DNA of 43,980 bases from an uncultured Bacteroidota bacterium (GTDB taxonomy: Bacteria; Bacteroidota; Bacteroidia; Flavobacteriales; Schleiferiaceae): the NCBI GenBank assembly GCA_913057235.1, contig CAJXNI010000023.1:1-43980 (forward strand), read 5' to 3'. The notes under the pieces are model-generated. The model saw nothing but the letters and a program-made list of their open reading frames with translations, was not told where the DNA came from and did no database searches. Shown piece by piece: positions 28,413 to 43,980 of this stretch. The translations under genes and the position numbers were made by a program. The first letter of the stretch is position 1, and the number at the start of each line of letters is the position of its first letter.

Positions 28413-28485
<73 letters not shown>

Positions 28486-37965: not shown

Positions 37966-38598
37966 ATGCCTGTATTCAAACATCTTAGACAATCTTTATT
38001 TGAAGTAGTGATTTGGCACATTACCGAGAACACTGATCATTTGAAGCAAGGCATAGAACTACACCCCGAAGAAAAAGAGCGATTTCAATCCTTTAAAAAT
38101 GAGGTTCGAAAAAGAGAATTCTTAGCTCTACGGCATTGCCTGGCTGAAATTTTTGGCAAGAACCCCAAGGTATTTTACAGCGCAGAAGGCAAACCTCAAC
38201 TGGAATCAGTAGGTCATATTTCCTTTTCACACACCCGCCAATATGCGGCTGTAATTTTTAGCAAGCAGTTGCCCGTAGGCATTGATTTGGAGTGCTTTAG
38301 AGAGGGTATTGAAAAGATACAATCTAAATTTATACGCACCGAAGAAAATAAAACGCTGCACCCGGAAGCTAAAATAAAACACTTAACGGCCTACTGGGGT
38401 GGCAAAGAAGCCATTGTAAAAATAGAGGGAAACCGGCAGTTGGACTTTAAGAAAGAAATTCGCATTCAGCCATTTTTATACCAGCAGGCACAAAGCACTC
38501 AGGCCGTATTGCTGCGTGCAGGTAAACGCACCCACCTTACCCTGCGCTTTATAACCTTCCCGAAATTTATACTCACCTACGGTTGGCGTAACCCCTAA
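37966..38598 (+). CDS. 4'-phosphopantetheinyl transferase (Sfp-like)
   Basis: A 210-residue enzyme that moves the phosphopantetheine arm from CoA to a Ser of carrier proteins. Key stretches are [18 protein letters not shown] (S88, H89), VGIDLECF (D107, E109, magnesium ligands) and [12 protein letters not shown] (W144, K147, E148). It is a stand-alone gene with no synthase cluster nearby, so the likely target is the fatty acid acyl carrier protein. The start ATG is 20 bases beyond the ahcY promoter on the other strand. Confidence 0.88.
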
Positions 38599-38648: not shown

Positions 38649-39392
38649 ATGGCTCACAACGTACTCCAAACATTTGCCCTGGCACGTCAGCAAAAACAAA
38701 AAAAGCTGGCGCTTCTAATTGATCCTGATACCCCGGGTGAAGATCAGTTAAAGCATTTGGTGCAGGAAGCCAATCAAGCACATGTAGATTATATTTTCGT
38801 AGGAGGCTCTCTACTATTAAAAGACACTCTAGAGTCTTGCCTGGTAAAAGTTAAGTCGCTTACAAATATTCCCGTAATTCTCTTCCCCGGCAGTGTTTTA
38901 CAGGTAAGTGAAAAGGCAGACGCTATTCTTTTTCTGAGTCTTATTTCAGGGCGTAACCCTGATTTATTAATAGGCAACCAGGTGATTGCTGCTCCTTACC
39001 TAAAGCAACTTGACCTTGAAATTTTGCCTACCGGCTATCTTCTGGTAGAAAGCGGCCAAGCCACCACCGCCAGCTATATGAGCGGGAGCCAACCCATACC
39101 GCATCATAAACCAGAAATAGCAGCCTGCACCGCTATGGCTGGTGAAATGCTGGGACTCAAGCTTATTTATCTGGACGGAGGAAGCGGTGCCCAATATCCA
39201 GTTTCTGAAAGCATGGTTCAGCAAGTGCGGCAGGCGGTAGACGCCCCCATCATTGTGGGAGGCGGCATAAAAACCCCAGAAAAAGCGGTCGCTAATTGCA
39301 AGGCTGGGGCCGATGTAATTGTAGTAGGCAACGCCACAGAAAGCAATCCCAAACTGCTGCGCCAAATAGCCGAAGCCGTTCACCAATCCTAA
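38649..39392 (+). CDS. Geranylgeranylglyceryl/heptaprenylglyceryl phosphate synthase family
   Basis: A 247-residue TIM-barrel enzyme joining a polyprenyl diphosphate to glycerol-1-phosphate through an ether bond. Signatures are LALLIDPDTPG at the N terminus, YIFVGGSLLLKD, IPVILFPGS, ADAILFLSLISGRNPDLLIG, LIYLDGGSGA and APIIVGGGIKTPEKA with the final phosphate site GADVIVVGNATE. Bacteroidota carry such archaeal-like enzymes; the lipid made is uncertain. It is the first of four close genes (11 bases to the YkoF-like gene). Confidence 0.92.
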   Translation: MAHNVLQTFALARQQKQKKLALLIDPDTPGEDQLKHLVQEANQAHVDYIFVGGSLLLKDTLESCLVKVKSLTNIPVILFPGSVLQVSEKADAILFLSLISGRNPDLLIGNQVIAAPYLKQLDLEILPTGYLLVESGQATTASYMSGSQPIPHHKPEIAACTAMAGEMLGLKLIYLDGGSGAQYPVSESMVQQVRQAVDAPIIVGGGIKTPEKAVANCKAGADVIVVGNATESNPKLLRQIAEAVHQS

Positions 39393-39403
39393 AGCGTATT
39401 CGT

Positions 39404-39667
39404 ATGGATATTTCCGTAGAAATCTCCAAGCACCCCTTAACCGAAGACTACCTCAACCGGGTAGATGACTTTCTGGAACGCCTGCACCATCACCCGCAAA
39501 TAAAGGTGGTGACCCAATGCATGAGCACCCAAATTTTTGGTGAGGCCCACACGGTATTTCAAATTTTAGAACAAGAAATCACCCGTTCTTTTGAAAGTGG
39601 CCAAAGCCCCTTTGTGCTGAAAATTCTAAAAGGAGATTTGTCTGACATGACTATAAAAAGGTATTAA
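39404..39667 (+). CDS. YkoF-like thiamine/HMP-binding protein, single domain
   Basis: An 87-residue cytosolic protein with one ferredoxin-like domain. It starts MDISVEISKHPLTEDYLNRV and carries VVTQCMSTQIFGEAHTV and FVLKILKGDLSDM. The pattern resembles single-domain proteins of the YkoF group; B. subtilis YkoF binds thiamine and its pyrimidine part. The start at 39404 is preferred to an earlier in-frame one that would lie inside the preceding gene. Its stop and the next ATG share one base (TAATG), coupling it to the PnuC-like transporter, which supports a role in vitamin B1 uptake. Confidence 0.7.
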   Translation: MDISVEISKHPLTEDYLNRVDDFLERLHHHPQIKVVTQCMSTQIFGEAHTVFQILEQEITRSFESGQSPFVLKILKGDLSDMTIKRY

Positions 39668-40212
39668 TGTCTGGCAGATTACTGCTCATTTTGGAAGCCC
39701 TGGCCGTGCTGTGCAGCATTGCCTACACGGTTCTCATTACAGAGGGCATTATCTGGTGCTGGCTTTTTGCCTTGCTTTCAGCCGCCTTGTACTTGGTAAT
39801 CTGTGGCCAAAAACGAATTTATGCCGAAATGCTCCTGCAGGGATTTTACCTGGCCACTGCCGTATACGGCTACCAACACTGGGGCCGCGGGCTGGAAGAA
39901 ACCATGCGCCAGCTGCCCCTTAATTTTCACGCGGGCATCGTCTCCTCCGGTCTGGCGCTGGTATTGGTTAGTGGCTTCCTCTTAAAACGCTACACCAATG
40001 CAGCCAAGCCCTTAATTGACTCTTTCACTACCGTATTCAGCGTTTTTGCAACCTTATTGCAAATCAACCTCTTTCCCGAGAATTGGCTCTATTTTATAGT
40101 GATTGATGCTGCTTCTGTGTACCTCTACCTCAGCCGCAAGCTGTACCTAACTGCACTCCTGTTTTTAGTGTACACTGCACTGGCTATAAATGGATATTTT
40201 TCATGGACCTAG
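39667..40212 (+). CDS. PnuC-family vitamin transporter (probable thiamine type)
   Basis: A 181-residue inner-membrane protein with about six to seven helices. Family marks are AEMLLQGFYLATAVYGYQHW and the C-terminal ENWLYFIVIDAASVYLYLSRKLYLTALLF. PnuC proteins pass nicotinamide riboside, riboflavin (PnuX) or thiamine (PnuT) by facilitated diffusion, with a kinase trapping the product. The thiamine type is favoured because of the YkoF-like gene before it, the kinase overlapping its end by 10 bases, and the TPP-riboswitch operon facing it. The substrate is inferred from context only. Confidence 0.82.
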   Translation: MSGRLLLILEALAVLCSIAYTVLITEGIIWCWLFALLSAALYLVICGQKRIYAEMLLQGFYLATAVYGYQHWGRGLEETMRQLPLNFHAGIVSSGLALVLVSGFLLKRYTNAAKPLIDSFTTVFSVFATLLQINLFPENWLYFIVIDAASVYLYLSRKLYLTALLFLVYTALAINGYFSWT

Positions 40213-40721
40213 CCAAAAGCATTGTTGTAACCGGCCCAGAGAGCAGCGGTAAAAGTAGCTTAACCCAAGCTCTGGCAGACTATTTTAAAAGCGCCTGGGT
40301 ACCTGAGTTTGCCCGCACGTACCTTGAAAAGCACGGACCGCAATATTCCTTAGCAGACTTCAAACACATGCTGGCTGGGCAATGGCAGCATAACCAAATC
40401 GCTTGCGCGGATGCCCAAAGCCCGGTGTTTTTAGACACCGATGTAATCAATTTTGCCGTTTGGTCAGATTTTGTATATCAAAAGCGCCCGCAAGAATTGC
40501 AAGCCTTGCTTGCCCAACCGAATCCGCATTACTATCTGATTTGTTACCCAGACCTTCCCTGGGAAGCCGATCCCTTACGTGAAAACCCTAAACAGCGCCT
40601 AGCAATTTTTGAAGCGCATAAGCGCCTTATTGAAGAAAAAAACCGGCCCTTTGCCATTGTCAAGGGAACCGGTTCAGAACGCCTTCAAAACGCTATTCAG
40701 GCAGTAGAAAAATGGCTGTAA
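40203..40721 (+). CDS. NadR-like P-loop kinase
   Basis: A 172-residue ATP-binding protein of the type found as the ribosylnicotinamide kinase half of NadR. It has Walker A VVTGPESSGKSSLTQ (8-22), WVPEFARTYLEKHGPQYS, PVFLDTDVINFAVWSDFV (acidic base region) and DLPWEADPLRENPKQR (lid). The nucleotidyltransferase half of NadR is missing. Paired with PnuC it should phosphorylate the imported vitamin. In this setting that could be thiamine, but nicotinamide riboside remains possible. The 3' end carries a terminator for the opposite strand. Confidence 0.85.
   Translation: MDLAKSIVVTGPESSGKSSLTQALADYFKSAWVPEFARTYLEKHGPQYSLADFKHMLAGQWQHNQIACADAQSPVFLDTDVINFAVWSDFVYQKRPQELQALLAQPNPHYYLICYPDLPWEADPLRENPKQRLAIFEAHKRLIEEKNRPFAIVKGTGSERLQNAIQAVEKWL
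40636..40674 (-). terminator. Terminator of the thiamine receptor operon, inside the kinase gene
   Basis: AACCGG (40641-40646) pairs with CCGGTT (40669-40674) and CCCTT (40647-40651) with AAGGG (40662-40666), with a two-base bulge. Seven A's (40636-40642) give a T tract after the hairpin on the minus strand. It sits 53 bases past the binding-protein stop, within the convergent kinase coding region. Confidence 0.75.
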
Positions 40722-40726
40722 AACGT

Positions 40727-41797
40727 CTATTCACTCTGGGGTAAATAGGCATTGGTGAAGAAAGCTTCGGCTGGCAGGCCTTTAATTTTCTCATAATCCA
40801 GCAATTGCTTTTGCGCCATCCAACCCAGGTATTGCTGCCAGGTGTTTTCACTCATTTGGCCCCAAGGGACTGAATCTAAATTATAGTAGGCGCCATTAAT
40901 ATCGGCCTGAGCCGCCCGTAAAAAGGAAGTATCACTAAAATTAGGGTGCTCAACAAAACGCACCAGACTATCTAGTACCGCCTGAGGATTGCGGATGGCG
41001 GCCTGATAACCCCTGCGCGTAACCGCTAAAAATGCGCGCACCTTAGGCTCCCAGTTTTCAGGCAGGGGCTTGGGTGCCATAATTACCGAAGAATAGCCAT
41101 AGGGCACCCCGTAATCATTGGGTATAAAAGTGTTGAGCTCTACTCCGGCCTGCTGGGCTCGTATGGCCTCCCAGTGCAAAAACACCCAGGCAATGTGGCC
41201 AGAGTCTTTTAGAAAAGCTTCCCATAGTTCCAAGCGCCCGGGCAATTGGGTTTTAAAATCAGGTGCGCCACCAGCATTTTCAATCATGCTACCCAGCACC
41301 TCTTCTTCTAAAGGGGTGTGGTAGCCCAAATAGGTTTTGCCCGTCCACTTGGCCGGATTGTCCAATCCTTGAGCGGCTTTTACCACAAAGGCGCTGCGAC
41401 TTTTCTGAAGCAAAGTGGCAATAGCCTGGGCTTTTACTTTGCATGAATCCACTGCGTAATGAAATAAATGCTCTGAAGGACCTATGGATAAATGCGCCTC
41501 CCCATCCAACACTTTTTTCAAGGGCTTTTTGGTGTAACCGTCTACTTCGGGTGTAAACCCTTTGAGCGGCACCCCCGCTTGTTGATACCAACCTTGCGAC
41601 TGCGCGTACAAAATACCGGTATGCAAAACGTTAGGCCGCCAGTCTAAAGCCAGCACCAAAGTATCTAAAGTGGCCGGGGTTTCTGTAGGTACCTTGGTAT
41701 TGGGCTCTTCGGCCGATGATGAGCCGTTGGGGTTACATCCGCTGAAAAGCGAACCGAACACCAGCAAAACACTGCAAAGTAAAGATGTATTTTTCAT
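40727..41797 (-). CDS. THI5/NMT1-like substrate-binding lipoprotein (thiamine precursor)
   Basis: A 356-residue lipoprotein (lipobox LFSGC, Cys21). The NMT1/THI5-type fold is marked by LVLALDWRPNVLHTGILYAQSQ, GWYQQAGV, AHLSIGPSEHLFHY, KTYLGYHTPLEEEVL and HIAWVFLHWEAIRA. Homologues such as ThiY bind pyrimidine precursors of thiamine for an ABC importer. No ABC permease or ATPase is adjacent. It overlaps the receptor gene by one base (TAATG) and shares its TPP riboswitch, so it serves in thiamine or precursor uptake. Which ligand it binds is not decided by the sequence. Confidence 0.82.
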   Translation of the reverse strand: MKNTSLLCSVLLVFGSLFSGCNPNGSSSAEEPNTKVPTETPATLDTLVLALDWRPNVLHTGILYAQSQGWYQQAGVPLKGFTPEVDGYTKKPLKKVLDGEAHLSIGPSEHLFHYAVDSCKVKAQAIATLLQKSRSAFVVKAAQGLDNPAKWTGKTYLGYHTPLEEEVLGSMIENAGGAPDFKTQLPGRLELWEAFLKDSGHIAWVFLHWEAIRAQQAGVELNTFIPNDYGVPYGYSSVIMAPKPLPENWEPKVRAFLAVTRRGYQAAIRNPQAVLDSLVRFVEHPNFSDTSFLRAAQADINGAYYNLDSVPWGQMSENTWQQYLGWMAQKQLLDYEKIKGLPAEAFFTNAYLPQSE

Positions 41798-43863
41798 TAA
41801 AAGCGCAGAGTTAGGGTTCCGTAAATATGAAAGGGCGGTTGCACGTAGTAGCCTGCCTCTCCAAAACTGATTTGACCGCGGGTGTAGTAAAGCTGGTCTG
41901 TTATATTATTAAACTGCAGGGCCAGGCTATGTTCCTGGTAAAACTGATAGTTGAAACCGGCATTAAAAACCAGCGAAGCGGGTACCGTCAATTCGGGGTT
42001 GTTGGTGAGCTCTAAAAACTGCTCGCTCAAGTAGCGCGCGGTGCACCAAAGTTCTAAGCCTGGGAATAGTTGATAGCTTAGCGTGCCGCGCACATTCCAT
42101 TCTGGGCTTAAAAGCGGGGTTACATCGGTGTACACCAAATTGGTATCAGCCGGGCTGTAGGTTTCTATGGCGGCTTGCATGTAGGTAGCCTGACTTTCTA
42201 AACGCAGCTTGCGCGTTAGGTATACCTGCCCCGTCAGCTCCACCCCCGTGCGGTAACTGGGTGCCTGGTTTACCCGGGCTAAAACGCCAAAACTAAGCGC
42301 CTCTCCTATGGGGGCAATTTCATTCTCAAAAGCCATGTAAAAGCCGTTCAGACTAAGGGTGTATTTTTCAGAGCGCAAACGGTAACCGACTTCAAAATCA
42401 TTTACGTACTCTGGTTTAGGTGTGCCAGTGTTAAGGGCCAGGTTTAAACTATTGGTGTCTATCAAATTAAAACCTCCAAAAATATCCACCCGGGTCGGCT
42501 CTCGGCCACTGCGGCCAAAAGATGCATACAGCTGGTTTTTTTCATTTACCTGATAAGTTAACCCGGCTTTGGGGTTTACAAAGAAGAATTCGCGATTAGG
42601 TATGGAAACATCTTGGCCAATGGAAGCCACATCGGTACTAAAACCCATTTGCACTGCACGGGCTTGGACATCAACATAAAGCTCAAATTGGTTCAGCTGA
42701 TACTGTGCTTTCGCGAAAGCAGAAGCCTCATTCTTAAATGAGTTTTCATTGTAACTGTACCGGGTGTTAATTTCGGGTACTTCATACTGTATATTCTCTC
42801 GTAAAAACTGGTAGGCCTGCACCCCAACGTTGAGCTTCAGATTGCCCTGCAAGGCATTATGATTTAGATTACTCATTGCGCCATAGTGCTGGTTGAACAA
42901 GGGGTAATTTTCTTGATAAAAAACATCTGATGTGTCTTTATAACCCGCAAAAAAATCGCCCCCGGCTCCACTGTAGTAAGCAGTGGTTACCAGGCTAGTT
43001 TTAGAAGCCAGGCGATAGGTGTGCTGCAATTGCAGCATGTACTGGTTAAAATCATCCTCATCACCCAGGAAGTTGAGACTGGTGGTGGGGTCTTCCTTAA
43101 TCTCCGCTTCGGGTACAGCAGTATAGCCTAATTCGTTTTTAGACAATCCGCCAAAAGCGGTAAACTTTAGGGCGTGTTTTTGCCCAAAATAACCCCCTGA
43201 GAAAAAGAAAGACTGCGCGTTGGTGGCAGTATTATCTCTGAAGCCCTCACTTTGAATATGACTCACCCGGGCATAAAAAGCGGTGCGGTTTTCCAGCAAA
43301 CCGGTATGTACCTCTGCGCTTCCGCGGAGGGTCCCAAAGGAGCCTCCCGTAAACTGTACTTCGCTGGAAGGTTCTTTTTGGGTGAGTGCTATAGACTCAA
43401 AATTGATGGAGCCCGCGTAAGAAGAAACACCATTGGTACTGGTGCCTACCCCCCGCTGAATTTGCACCGACTCAATGCTGTTGCCAAAGTCTACAAAGTT
43501 GGAGAAAAACACGCCCTGGCCCAGCATGTCGTTCAGTGGCACTCCGTTTAAGGTAAGATTTACGCGCGTTTGATCTATGCCACGCAAGCGAAAGGTACCG
43601 TAGTTGCCCAGGCTGGTGCCACTTTCAGTAGAACTGACAATGCTGGGTGAAATCTGATCCAGCAGAAAGGCGCCATCTTGCCCTTGGTAAATTTCTTCAA
43701 TTTGTTTTTTAGAAACCGTAAGCTGACTCACCGGAGCGTTTTCTCCTGCTCGTACGGCCTTAATGGTTACTTCTTCTAGCTGTTGGGGCTTTAAGGTGTC
43801 TTGTTGTTGTGCCTGCACGCCCAATGTTGCCAGCACTGAAAAAACGAATAACTTCCTTTTCAT
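41797..43863 (-). CDS. TonB-dependent receptor under TPP riboswitch control (thiamine/precursor uptake)
   Basis: A 688-residue outer-membrane receptor. A signal peptide (MKRKLFVFSVLATLGVQA) and TonB box (EEVTIKA) lead into the plug, with FRLRGIDQTRVNLTLNGVPL, SVQIQRGVGTSTNGVSSYAG and INFESIAL. The barrel ends YGTLTLRF. Unlike the other receptors here it lacks the carboxypeptidase-like N domain. The TPP riboswitch upstream shows that it is thiamine-linked. The ligand may be thiamine, HMP or a degradation product. Confidence 0.9.
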   Translation of the reverse strand: MKRKLFVFSVLATLGVQAQQQDTLKPQQLEEVTIKAVRAGENAPVSQLTVSKKQIEEIYQGQDGAFLLDQISPSIVSSTESGTSLGNYGTFRLRGIDQTRVNLTLNGVPLNDMLGQGVFFSNFVDFGNSIESVQIQRGVGTSTNGVSSYAGSINFESIALTQKEPSSEVQFTGGSFGTLRGSAEVHTGLLENRTAFYARVSHIQSEGFRDNTATNAQSFFFSGGYFGQKHALKFTAFGGLSKNELGYTAVPEAEIKEDPTTSLNFLGDEDDFNQYMLQLQHTYRLASKTSLVTTAYYSGAGGDFFAGYKDTSDVFYQENYPLFNQHYGAMSNLNHNALQGNLKLNVGVQAYQFLRENIQYEVPEINTRYSYNENSFKNEASAFAKAQYQLNQFELYVDVQARAVQMGFSTDVASIGQDVSIPNREFFFVNPKAGLTYQVNEKNQLYASFGRSGREPTRVDIFGGFNLIDTNSLNLALNTGTPKPEYVNDFEVGYRLRSEKYTLSLNGFYMAFENEIAPIGEALSFGVLARVNQAPSYRTGVELTGQVYLTRKLRLESQATYMQAAIETYSPADTNLVYTDVTPLLSPEWNVRGTLSYQLFPGLELWCTARYLSEQFLELTNNPELTVPASLVFNAGFNYQFYQEHSLALQFNNITDQLYYTRGQISFGEAGYYVQPPFHIYGTLTLRF

Positions 43864-43919
43864 GATAAAATCAATGAAGAGAAGCCGGGGTTCTTCTAGT
43901 GTTTATTTTAGTTCAACTT

Positions 43920-43980
43920 GGCCCTACCCTTAGGGCATTTTTACCTACGCCAGCATTACCTGGATCAGGCTTTGATCTTT
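43920..43980 (-). promoter_or_regulatory. TPP riboswitch (THI box), 3' part, cut by the window edge
   Basis: Read on the minus strand, CCTGATCCAGGTAATGCTGG runs on into CGTAGG (ending at 43944), the conserved 3' half of the TPP aptamer. The 5' half with CTGAGA lies beyond the window. After it comes a GCCCTA-AGGG-TAGGGC hairpin (43921-43936), without a T tract at once. The expression platform may thus act on translation or be more complex. A second small hairpin with AGAAG/CTTCT arms lies nearer the start codon. It should shut off the receptor and binding-protein genes when thiamine pyrophosphate is plentiful. Confidence 0.9.

Follow-up and report, generated by a model that had tools for sequence, protein, structure and literature searches.

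A NadR-like kinase beside a PnuC-family transporter as the probable thiamine kinase of many Bacteroidia

How does a bacterium activate imported thiamine when no thiamine pyrophosphokinase (TPK) is found in its genome? This question is raised by a contig of 43,980 bases (CAJXNI010000023.1 of assembly GCA_913057235.1) from an uncultured Schleiferiaceae bacterium of the order Flavobacteriales, class Bacteroidia. The entire contig is called the window here; the source genome is 2.83 Mb in size and 99.97% complete. Near the end of the window, the plus strand encodes a YkoF-like protein, a PnuC-family transporter and a NadR-like kinase (hereafter, the cassette). These genes converge with minus-strand genes for an NMT1/THI5-like (ThiY-like) lipoprotein and a TonB-dependent receptor, which lie behind a thiamine pyrophosphate (TPP) riboswitch (Table 1). 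The original prediction, made from the letters of this DNA, proposed that the kinase may act on thiamine or hydroxymethylpyrimidine (HMP) and so trap thiamine imported by a PnuT-type transporter, and that the YkoF-like protein may pass substrate to it. The six genes that it named are all present according to Pfam or profile matches. The gene ends overlap as it had described: by 1 base (TAATG) between the YkoF and PnuC genes and likewise between the receptor and lipoprotein genes, and by 10 bases between the PnuC and kinase reading frames. Between the stops of the convergent kinase and lipoprotein genes there are 5 bases. In the following, G numbers are sampled genomes (G000 is the source genome), L numbers are loci and C numbers are contigs of the source genome, the window being C23.

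We searched the source genome for enzymes of thiamine metabolism. No TPK (PF04263), ThiE (TIGR00693, E 1e-3) or ThiC (PF01964) was found by profile search. ThiL, which acts on thiamine monophosphate (TMP), is present (TIGR01379, 284.8 bits; cut-off, 184). Because neither ThiE nor TPK was matched, the kinase is the only visible candidate source of TMP for ThiL; the search did not extend to YjbQ-, ThiN- and ThiK-type enzymes. This gene content agrees with the original prediction of a thiamine kinase. As one part of the best explanation, we infer from it that the locus serves thiamine salvage in a thiamine auxotroph. We propose that, very probably, thiamine is imported by the receptor and the PnuC-family protein, is converted to TMP and thereby trapped by the NadR-like kinase, and is then made into TPP by ThiL. 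In this pathway, low TPP would free expression of the receptor and the ThiY-like lipoprotein. TPP riboswitches free expression when TPP is low, and because one precedes the receptor gene, the receptor should be made under this condition. The receptor would carry thiamine over the outer membrane and the PnuC-family protein would pass it through the inner membrane. The YkoF-like protein may hold thiamine for the kinase, which would form TMP, and ThiL, encoded elsewhere in the genome, would complete TPP. PnuC-type transport is reportedly facilitated diffusion (as attributed to Jaehme, 2018). Therefore, trapping by phosphorylation would drive the uptake.

The distribution of the kinase relative to TPK was analyzed in two sets of genomes. 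The order sample comprises 119 genomes, in which the kinase was counted at E 1e-5. A partial match in G099 was counted, secondary partial matches in G053 and G044 were left aside, and three weak ThiE rows (G055, G089 and G096; 20.4 bits or less) were left out. The kinase was found in 77 genomes and TPK in 33: 72 possess the kinase alone, 28 TPK alone, 5 both and 14 neither. In 59 of the 119 genomes, the kinase and ThiL (over the cut-off) are present without TPK or ThiE (at least 80 bits). Eight genomes, 65 to 97% complete, possess the kinase but no ThiE, TPK or strong ThiL. The class sample comprises 197 Bacteroidia genomes from 62 families, at least 95% complete, and a few of these are shared with the order sample. 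With cut-offs of E 1e-10 for the kinase, 1e-12 for ThiE and 1e-3 for TPK, the totals were 110 kinase, 70 ThiE and 37 TPK genomes. ThiE is missing from 127 genomes; of these, 95 hold the kinase alone and 27 hold TPK alone, none combines the two, and 5 (G147, G205, G228, G271 and G288) lack both (Fisher p 7e-23, phylogeny being ignored). Among the 70 genomes with ThiE, neither enzyme is present in 49, the kinase in 11, TPK in 6 and both in 4. When the kinase was shuffled within families (20,000 runs), the number of genomes without kinase, TPK and ThiE averaged 11.7 with a minimum of 6; the observed number is 5. Ten families mix kinase-bearing and kinase-lacking genomes, and in eight of them all kinase-lacking members have ThiE (those of one of the eight, f46, also have TPK). 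The exceptions, G288 (f26) and G205 (f38), have neither TPK nor ThiE. Two open reading frames (ORFs) of 195 residues, located next to ThiE matches in two kinase genomes (L269:11999-12583 and L276:10280-10864), were matched by a home-made TPK profile (60 and 58 bits, respectively); they gave no Pfam match and were not counted as TPK.

The 77 kinase loci of the order (76 fetched loci and the window, many truncated by contig ends) were compared. Of these, 61 contain PnuC, 34 contain YkoF, 72 contain at least one of the two, and 58 contain a TonB receptor. For the riboswitch, we used RF00059 and a covariance model, R1, built from 25 aptamers, of which 20 were taken from these loci. Of the 76 loci that were fetched, R1 detected a TPP riboswitch in 58 and RF00059 in 55. 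In 57 of the 58 loci, the receptor is the first labelled gene to follow the riboswitch on its strand within 400 bases, and the remaining locus is cut by a contig end. Relative to the kinase, the riboswitch is downstream on the same strand in 53 loci and on the opposite strand in 5. Thus, the usual order is YkoF-PnuC-kinase-riboswitch-receptor. The convergent arrangement emphasized in the original prediction is real in the window but is shared only with close relatives (L040 and L042-L044), and the plus-strand genes here are not behind the riboswitch. Several loci (L051, L056, L064, L071-L073, L081, L082 and L084) possess YkoF, kinase, riboswitch and receptor with no PnuC nearby. These loci tie the kinase to thiamine and not to PnuC, and another inner-membrane transporter may serve them.

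Loci beyond the order were obtained from one scan of genome contigs, which gave 573 confirmed loci; the best 80 are the named loci considered here. The closest of these 80 are from metagenome-assembled genomes (MAGs) labelled Flavobacteriales, Cryomorphaceae and Owenweeksia, and YkoF, PnuC and kinase occur together in 34 of the 80 (hand count). At three loci, the cassette lies directly behind a TPP riboswitch that exceeds the Rfam gathering score. In L215, from an uncultured Flavobacteriales MAG, a riboswitch (65.7 bits, 607-699) is followed by YkoF, PnuC and kinase; the receptor comes next, behind a second riboswitch of 42.1 bits. In L223, from Marivirga aurantiaca, a riboswitch (55.0 bits) precedes the PnuC-kinase pair and ends at the PnuC start codon. 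In L235, from a MAG labelled Prosthecobacter debontii (a Verrucomicrobia label), a riboswitch (63.9 bits) is followed by TonB receptor, PnuC and kinase.

To these we added the neighbourhoods of 20 TPK loci, drawn from the class sample and from two genomes of the order, together with those of 20 companion kinase loci. For 36 of the 110 kinase genomes and 20 of the 37 TPK genomes of the class sample, nothing on gene neighbourhood is drawn from outside these 40 loci. PnuC adjoins TPK in 4 of the 20 TPK loci (L240, L243, L249 and L252), and three of these four run riboswitch-TonB-PnuC-TPK, as in the published Bacteroides module (PMC5613172). PnuC adjoins the kinase in 15 of the 20 companion loci (hand count), and a riboswitch is present in 6 (L264, L265, L269, L273, L276 and L277). 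Thus, the same transporter partners either enzyme. The alternation with TPK, the four PnuC-TPK loci and the three riboswitch-led cassettes strongly support the thiamine-kinase assignment of the original prediction. We consider it probable that this NadR-like family is the thiamine kinase in much of the class Bacteroidia, where it would replace TPK non-orthologously, with a YkoF-type protein as the carrier of thiamine inside the cell.

The kinase consists of 172 residues, which make up a NadR-like kinase domain but no adenylyltransferase domain; its match to TIGR01526 is limited to positions 162-320 of that profile (86.4 bits; cut-off, 341). AAA_28 was found in a Pfam scan with no APH-type phosphotransferase match, and the TPK catalytic domain (PF04263) was not matched at E 0.1. 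The AlphaFold2 model (mean predicted local distance difference test score, pLDDT, 94.4) matches best the NadR kinase domain 6gyf (Z 21.6, 2.2 Å over 171 residues), and thymidylate kinases are lower matches (Z near 16). With NadR, the kinase has Walker A, the E..R pair, DTD and W..D..R in common. The two differ at three alignment columns. Among 171 distinct kinase homologues, 169 have Asp at column 117, where three solved NadR structures have Thr, Asn and Asn. At column 127, Glu or Asp occurs in 161 homologues and Ile, Ser and Ser in the same structures; at column 37, 167 homologues have Ala or Ser and the three structures have Gly. From the alignment, these columns are candidates for determinants of substrate choice. 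The source genome has a second strong AAA_28 gene (C2:126290); RecQ is among its neighbours, and inspection by eye showed no PnuC there. L008 and L009, loci with weaker AAA_28 matches, were left out of the analysis. Fusions of the kinase to DUF4301 (PF14134) are found in Flavobacterium-like genomes, with 684 and 627 bits for the two ORFs that were scanned (L111:6466-8865 and L096:6439-8637); long kinase ORFs are also present in L107, L109 and L112. In other Flavobacteriaceae-type loci, the kinase is followed by an independent ORF (about 520 residues) that belongs to the same similarity cluster. DUF4301 may act in the pathway of the kinase.

The assignment of a TPP riboswitch to the receptor-lipoprotein strand was confirmed, with the qualification that the element lies only partly inside the window. 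The portion inside (43944-43969, P4/P5) scores 23.4 bits. The 3′ end of contig C6 is identical to the last 77 bases of the window (43904-43980), and because this overlap falls inside the riboswitch leader, the assembly break between C23 and C6 is placed there. The whole aptamer on C6 (127447-127559) matches RF00059 at E 8.5e-4, and its 29.8 bits fall short of the gathering score (54.3). Its core elements GGGGTG, CTGAGA and ACCC are common to the 24 relatives in the alignment, and both-sided changes occur at 8 of 15 consensus pairs. In the source genome, the riboswitch is upstream of the minus-strand receptor-lipoprotein pair only; in the window, no riboswitch was found 5′ of the plus-strand cassette (Rfam, gathering thresholds). 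The sole other TPP match in the source genome at E 0.01 (C25:22148-22261, equal to L278:4149-4262; 25.5 bits) falls within an ORF whose end is OmpA-like, and R1 misses it. It was judged to be a chance match.

The YkoF-like protein has 87 residues and one domain, and clears the PF07615 cut-off narrowly. A profile of 29 of its relatives matches the solved ykoF structure 1s7h at 9.3e-8. Its model (pLDDT 93.7) resembles the single-domain thiamine-binding family in structure comparison, namely TM0486 (1vk8; Z 12.8, 2.4 Å over 86 residues) and SP2199 (Z 12.8); ykoF itself is absent among the matches listed. For the YkoF-like protein, a probable role is to bind cytoplasmic thiamine, either buffering it or passing it on to the kinase. 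The PnuC sequence shares 27-31% identity with TPK-linked PnuC proteins and 25% with the nicotinamide riboside (NR) transporter 4qtn, and a DSFTT motif is found in 43 of 140 kinase-linked PnuC proteins. A PnuC tree rooted on one NR transporter was uninformative, and neither it nor the motif serves as proof of thiamine specificity. The lipoprotein has a lipobox-like start (read by eye), and its solved relatives are a clostridial binding protein (4nmy, 4e-31) and a FAMP-binding protein (3ix1, 2e-16). Its neighbours are the receptor and the kinase, with no adjoining ATP-binding cassette (ABC) permease or ATPase. The lipoprotein family is present in 2 of the 77 order loci and, among the best 80 of the 573 loci, also in L159, L161, L167 and L218. 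Being rare in kinase loci, it is therefore regarded as an optional addition.

Several observations weigh against a thiamine kinase. The best fold match is the NR kinase domain of NadR, the small difference in PnuC identities does little to separate thiamine from NR transport, and the riboswitch in the window is not located before the kinase. No PnuC is nearby in 16 of the 77 order loci. R1 detected a riboswitch in 18 of the 80 named loci and none in 62, and the YkoF-PnuC-kinase loci L166, L168, L170, L171, L176 and L181, which carry Bacteroidales or Bacteroidetes labels, had no Rfam riboswitch. In the class sample, five genomes without ThiE carry neither enzyme, 11 possess the kinase and ThiE but no TPK, and TPK, ThiE and kinase are found together in all 4 kinase-bearing Flavobacterium-like genomes; in the order, 5 Flavobacterium-like genomes hold both kinase and TPK. 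Finally, ThiL occurs in 193 of the 197 class genomes, and its presence alone is therefore uninformative about the kinase. Some of these points would fit the idea that the window encodes a true NR transporter and kinase for the salvage of nicotinamide adenine dinucleotide (NAD), placed beside a thiamine receptor by chance. PnuC and NadR kinase are an established NR pair, the kinase model matches NadR with NR at Z 21.6, and the window PnuC exceeds the NCBIfam PnuC equivalog cut-off (76.6 bits; cut-off, 42.45). Moreover, no TPP riboswitch was found at the PnuC-kinase pairs L175, L192, L193 and L230 (Amphritea and two deltaproteobacterial records), which were possibly transferred or have another substrate. 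However, NAD salvage is at odds with the alternation of kinase and TPK in genomes without ThiE (95, 27, 0 and 5), with the TPP riboswitches directly 5′ of the cassette at three loci, and with the loci that keep the kinase beside riboswitch and receptor in the absence of a nearby PnuC (for example, L064, L082 and L084). The original prediction had regarded a usual association with NAD-related regulators as contrary to a thiamine function; in the window and 18 kinase loci, Rfam at the gathering threshold gave three TPP riboswitches and no NAD-related family. We therefore consider NAD salvage improbable.

Because the kinase substitutes for TPK in distribution and in place, it might also function as a TPK and form TPP in one step. 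Against this, its NadR and thymidylate kinase relatives are known to transfer one phosphate, and 108 of the 110 kinase genomes in the class sample keep ThiL. The latter point is weakened by the 37 TPK genomes, which keep ThiL too. In one order family with 0.6-Mb genomes, all 13 of the 13 TPK-bearing genomes have only weak ThiL-like matches below the cut-off. ThiL retention seemed a good discriminator in the order owing to this family and was abandoned when it failed in the class. One-step TPP formation seems very unlikely to us. That the substrate is HMP, aminopyrimidine or thiazole alcohol, as a precursor of thiamine or a product of its breakdown, with the ThiY-like lipoprotein aiding delivery, is harder still to credit. 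The ThiY relative 3ix1 is known to bind a pyrimidine precursor, as does YkoF, and the 11 class genomes with kinase and ThiE but no TPK would suit this idea. However, ThiE and TPK are both missing in 95 of the 110 kinase genomes (YjbQ- and ThiN-type TMP synthases were not searched for), and the lipoprotein family occurs in only 2 of the 77 order loci. As no ThiE was matched in the source genome, it could not couple phosphorylated HMP with thiazole. HMP and thiazole were thus ruled out as first-choice substrates, and of the two substrates named in the original prediction, HMP is disfavoured. Thiamine is the substrate that we prefer for this kinase.

Table 1. Positions of the thiamine locus and its 5′ neighbours in the window
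Feature	Coordinates	Strand	Basis
4′-phosphopantetheinyl transferase (PPTase)	37966..38598	+	PF01648 33.5 bits, cut-off 25
Geranylgeranylglyceryl/heptaprenylglyceryl phosphate (GGGP) synthase, PcrB family	38649..39392	+	NF003198 290 bits, cut-off 247
YkoF-like single-domain protein, probable thiamine binder	39404..39667	+	PF07615 22.8 bits, cut-off 21
PnuC-family inner-membrane transporter, predicted thiamine (PnuT-like)	39667..40212	+	PF04973 153.6 bits
NadR-like P-loop kinase, predicted thiamine kinase (thiamine to TMP)	40203..40721	+	PF13521 106.9 bits
NMT1/THI5-like (ThiY-like) solute-binding lipoprotein	40727..41797	-	PF09084 122.2 bits, cut-off 20.5
TonB-dependent outer-membrane receptor, predicted thiamine receptor (OMthi/Omr1-like)	41797..43863	-	PF00593 104.7 bits, PF07715 39.2 bits
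TPP riboswitch, 3′ part, cut by contig end	43944..43980	-	P4/P5 match and C6 contig overlap

The range given in the original prediction covers the locus, but it starts at 38649 with a GGGP synthase gene that was left unnamed, and a PPTase gene lies before it. These two genes are kept directly 5′ of the cassette and have no known role in thiamine metabolism; within the fetched stretches, the PPTase is present in 54 and the GGGP synthase in 46 of the 77 order kinase loci. A tRNA gene with a CAT anticodon loop is located at 28413-28485 of the window (RF00005, 61 bits).

Modules of receptor, PnuT and TPK are already known (PMC5613172 and PMC6977713), and OMthi-PnuT-Tnr3 (TPK) is described as the thiamine uptake module of gut Bacteroidetes (PMC5613172). 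The window shares with it a TPP riboswitch before the receptor, the TonB receptor, a PnuC-family permease and a vitamin-phosphorylating enzyme, which is predicted here. It differs in that the kinase has a NadR-like P-loop fold unrelated to TPK, with no TPK match in the genome, that YkoF-like and ThiY-like proteins are added, and that the riboswitch in the window is before the receptor only. PnuC homologues have been named by riboswitch class, TPP included (PMC7749635). The pairing of a PnuC-family transporter with an adjoining kinase of NadR-type fold, with Walker A and DTD motifs, resembles PnuC and the NadR ribosylnicotinamide kinase. In contrast to that system, the kinase domain stands alone and has Asp117 and Glu/Asp127 in place of Thr/Asn and Ser/Ile of the three solved NadR structures, and TPP riboswitches and TPK alternation take the place of a link to NAD. 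The single 87-residue YkoF-like domain is like the YkoF/MTH1187 thiamine-binding family in sequence profile and fold, and unlike Bacillus subtilis YkoF, which has two tandem domains; it lies beside PnuC and not beside a YkoEDC-type ABC transporter. Similarly, the lipoprotein shares PF09084 with NMT1/THI5-like (ThiY) systems but lacks their adjoining ABC permease and ATPase. The predicted reaction from thiamine to TMP, feeding ThiL, is that of ThiK (YcfN), which is said to be the Escherichia coli thiamine kinase (attributed to Melnick, 2004). Unlike ThiK, the window kinase belongs to AAA_28 and has no APH-type match. In the open full-text literature, no NadR-like thiamine kinase was found reported; an earlier mention in subscription-only thiamine papers is possible.

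In coastal metagenomes, Bacteroidota clusters without described systems of vitamin B1 synthesis and transport have been noted (PMC10881298). With standard profiles, many thiamine-auxotrophic Bacteroidota show no kinase for salvaged thiamine, as in the 59 of 119 order genomes described above. If our proposal is correct, the NadR-like family supplies the missing activation step in many of them. A defined kinase would complete the path from the outer membrane to TPP, and would thereby alter predictions of vitamin dependence for abundant marine and gut bacteria. It would also correct NAD-salvage calls that rest on PnuC and a NadR-like kinase, since many genes of the class named nicotinamide riboside kinase or PnuC would then be misnamed. 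Furthermore, the locus would provide a clean case in which two unrelated enzymes substitute for each other beside one transporter.

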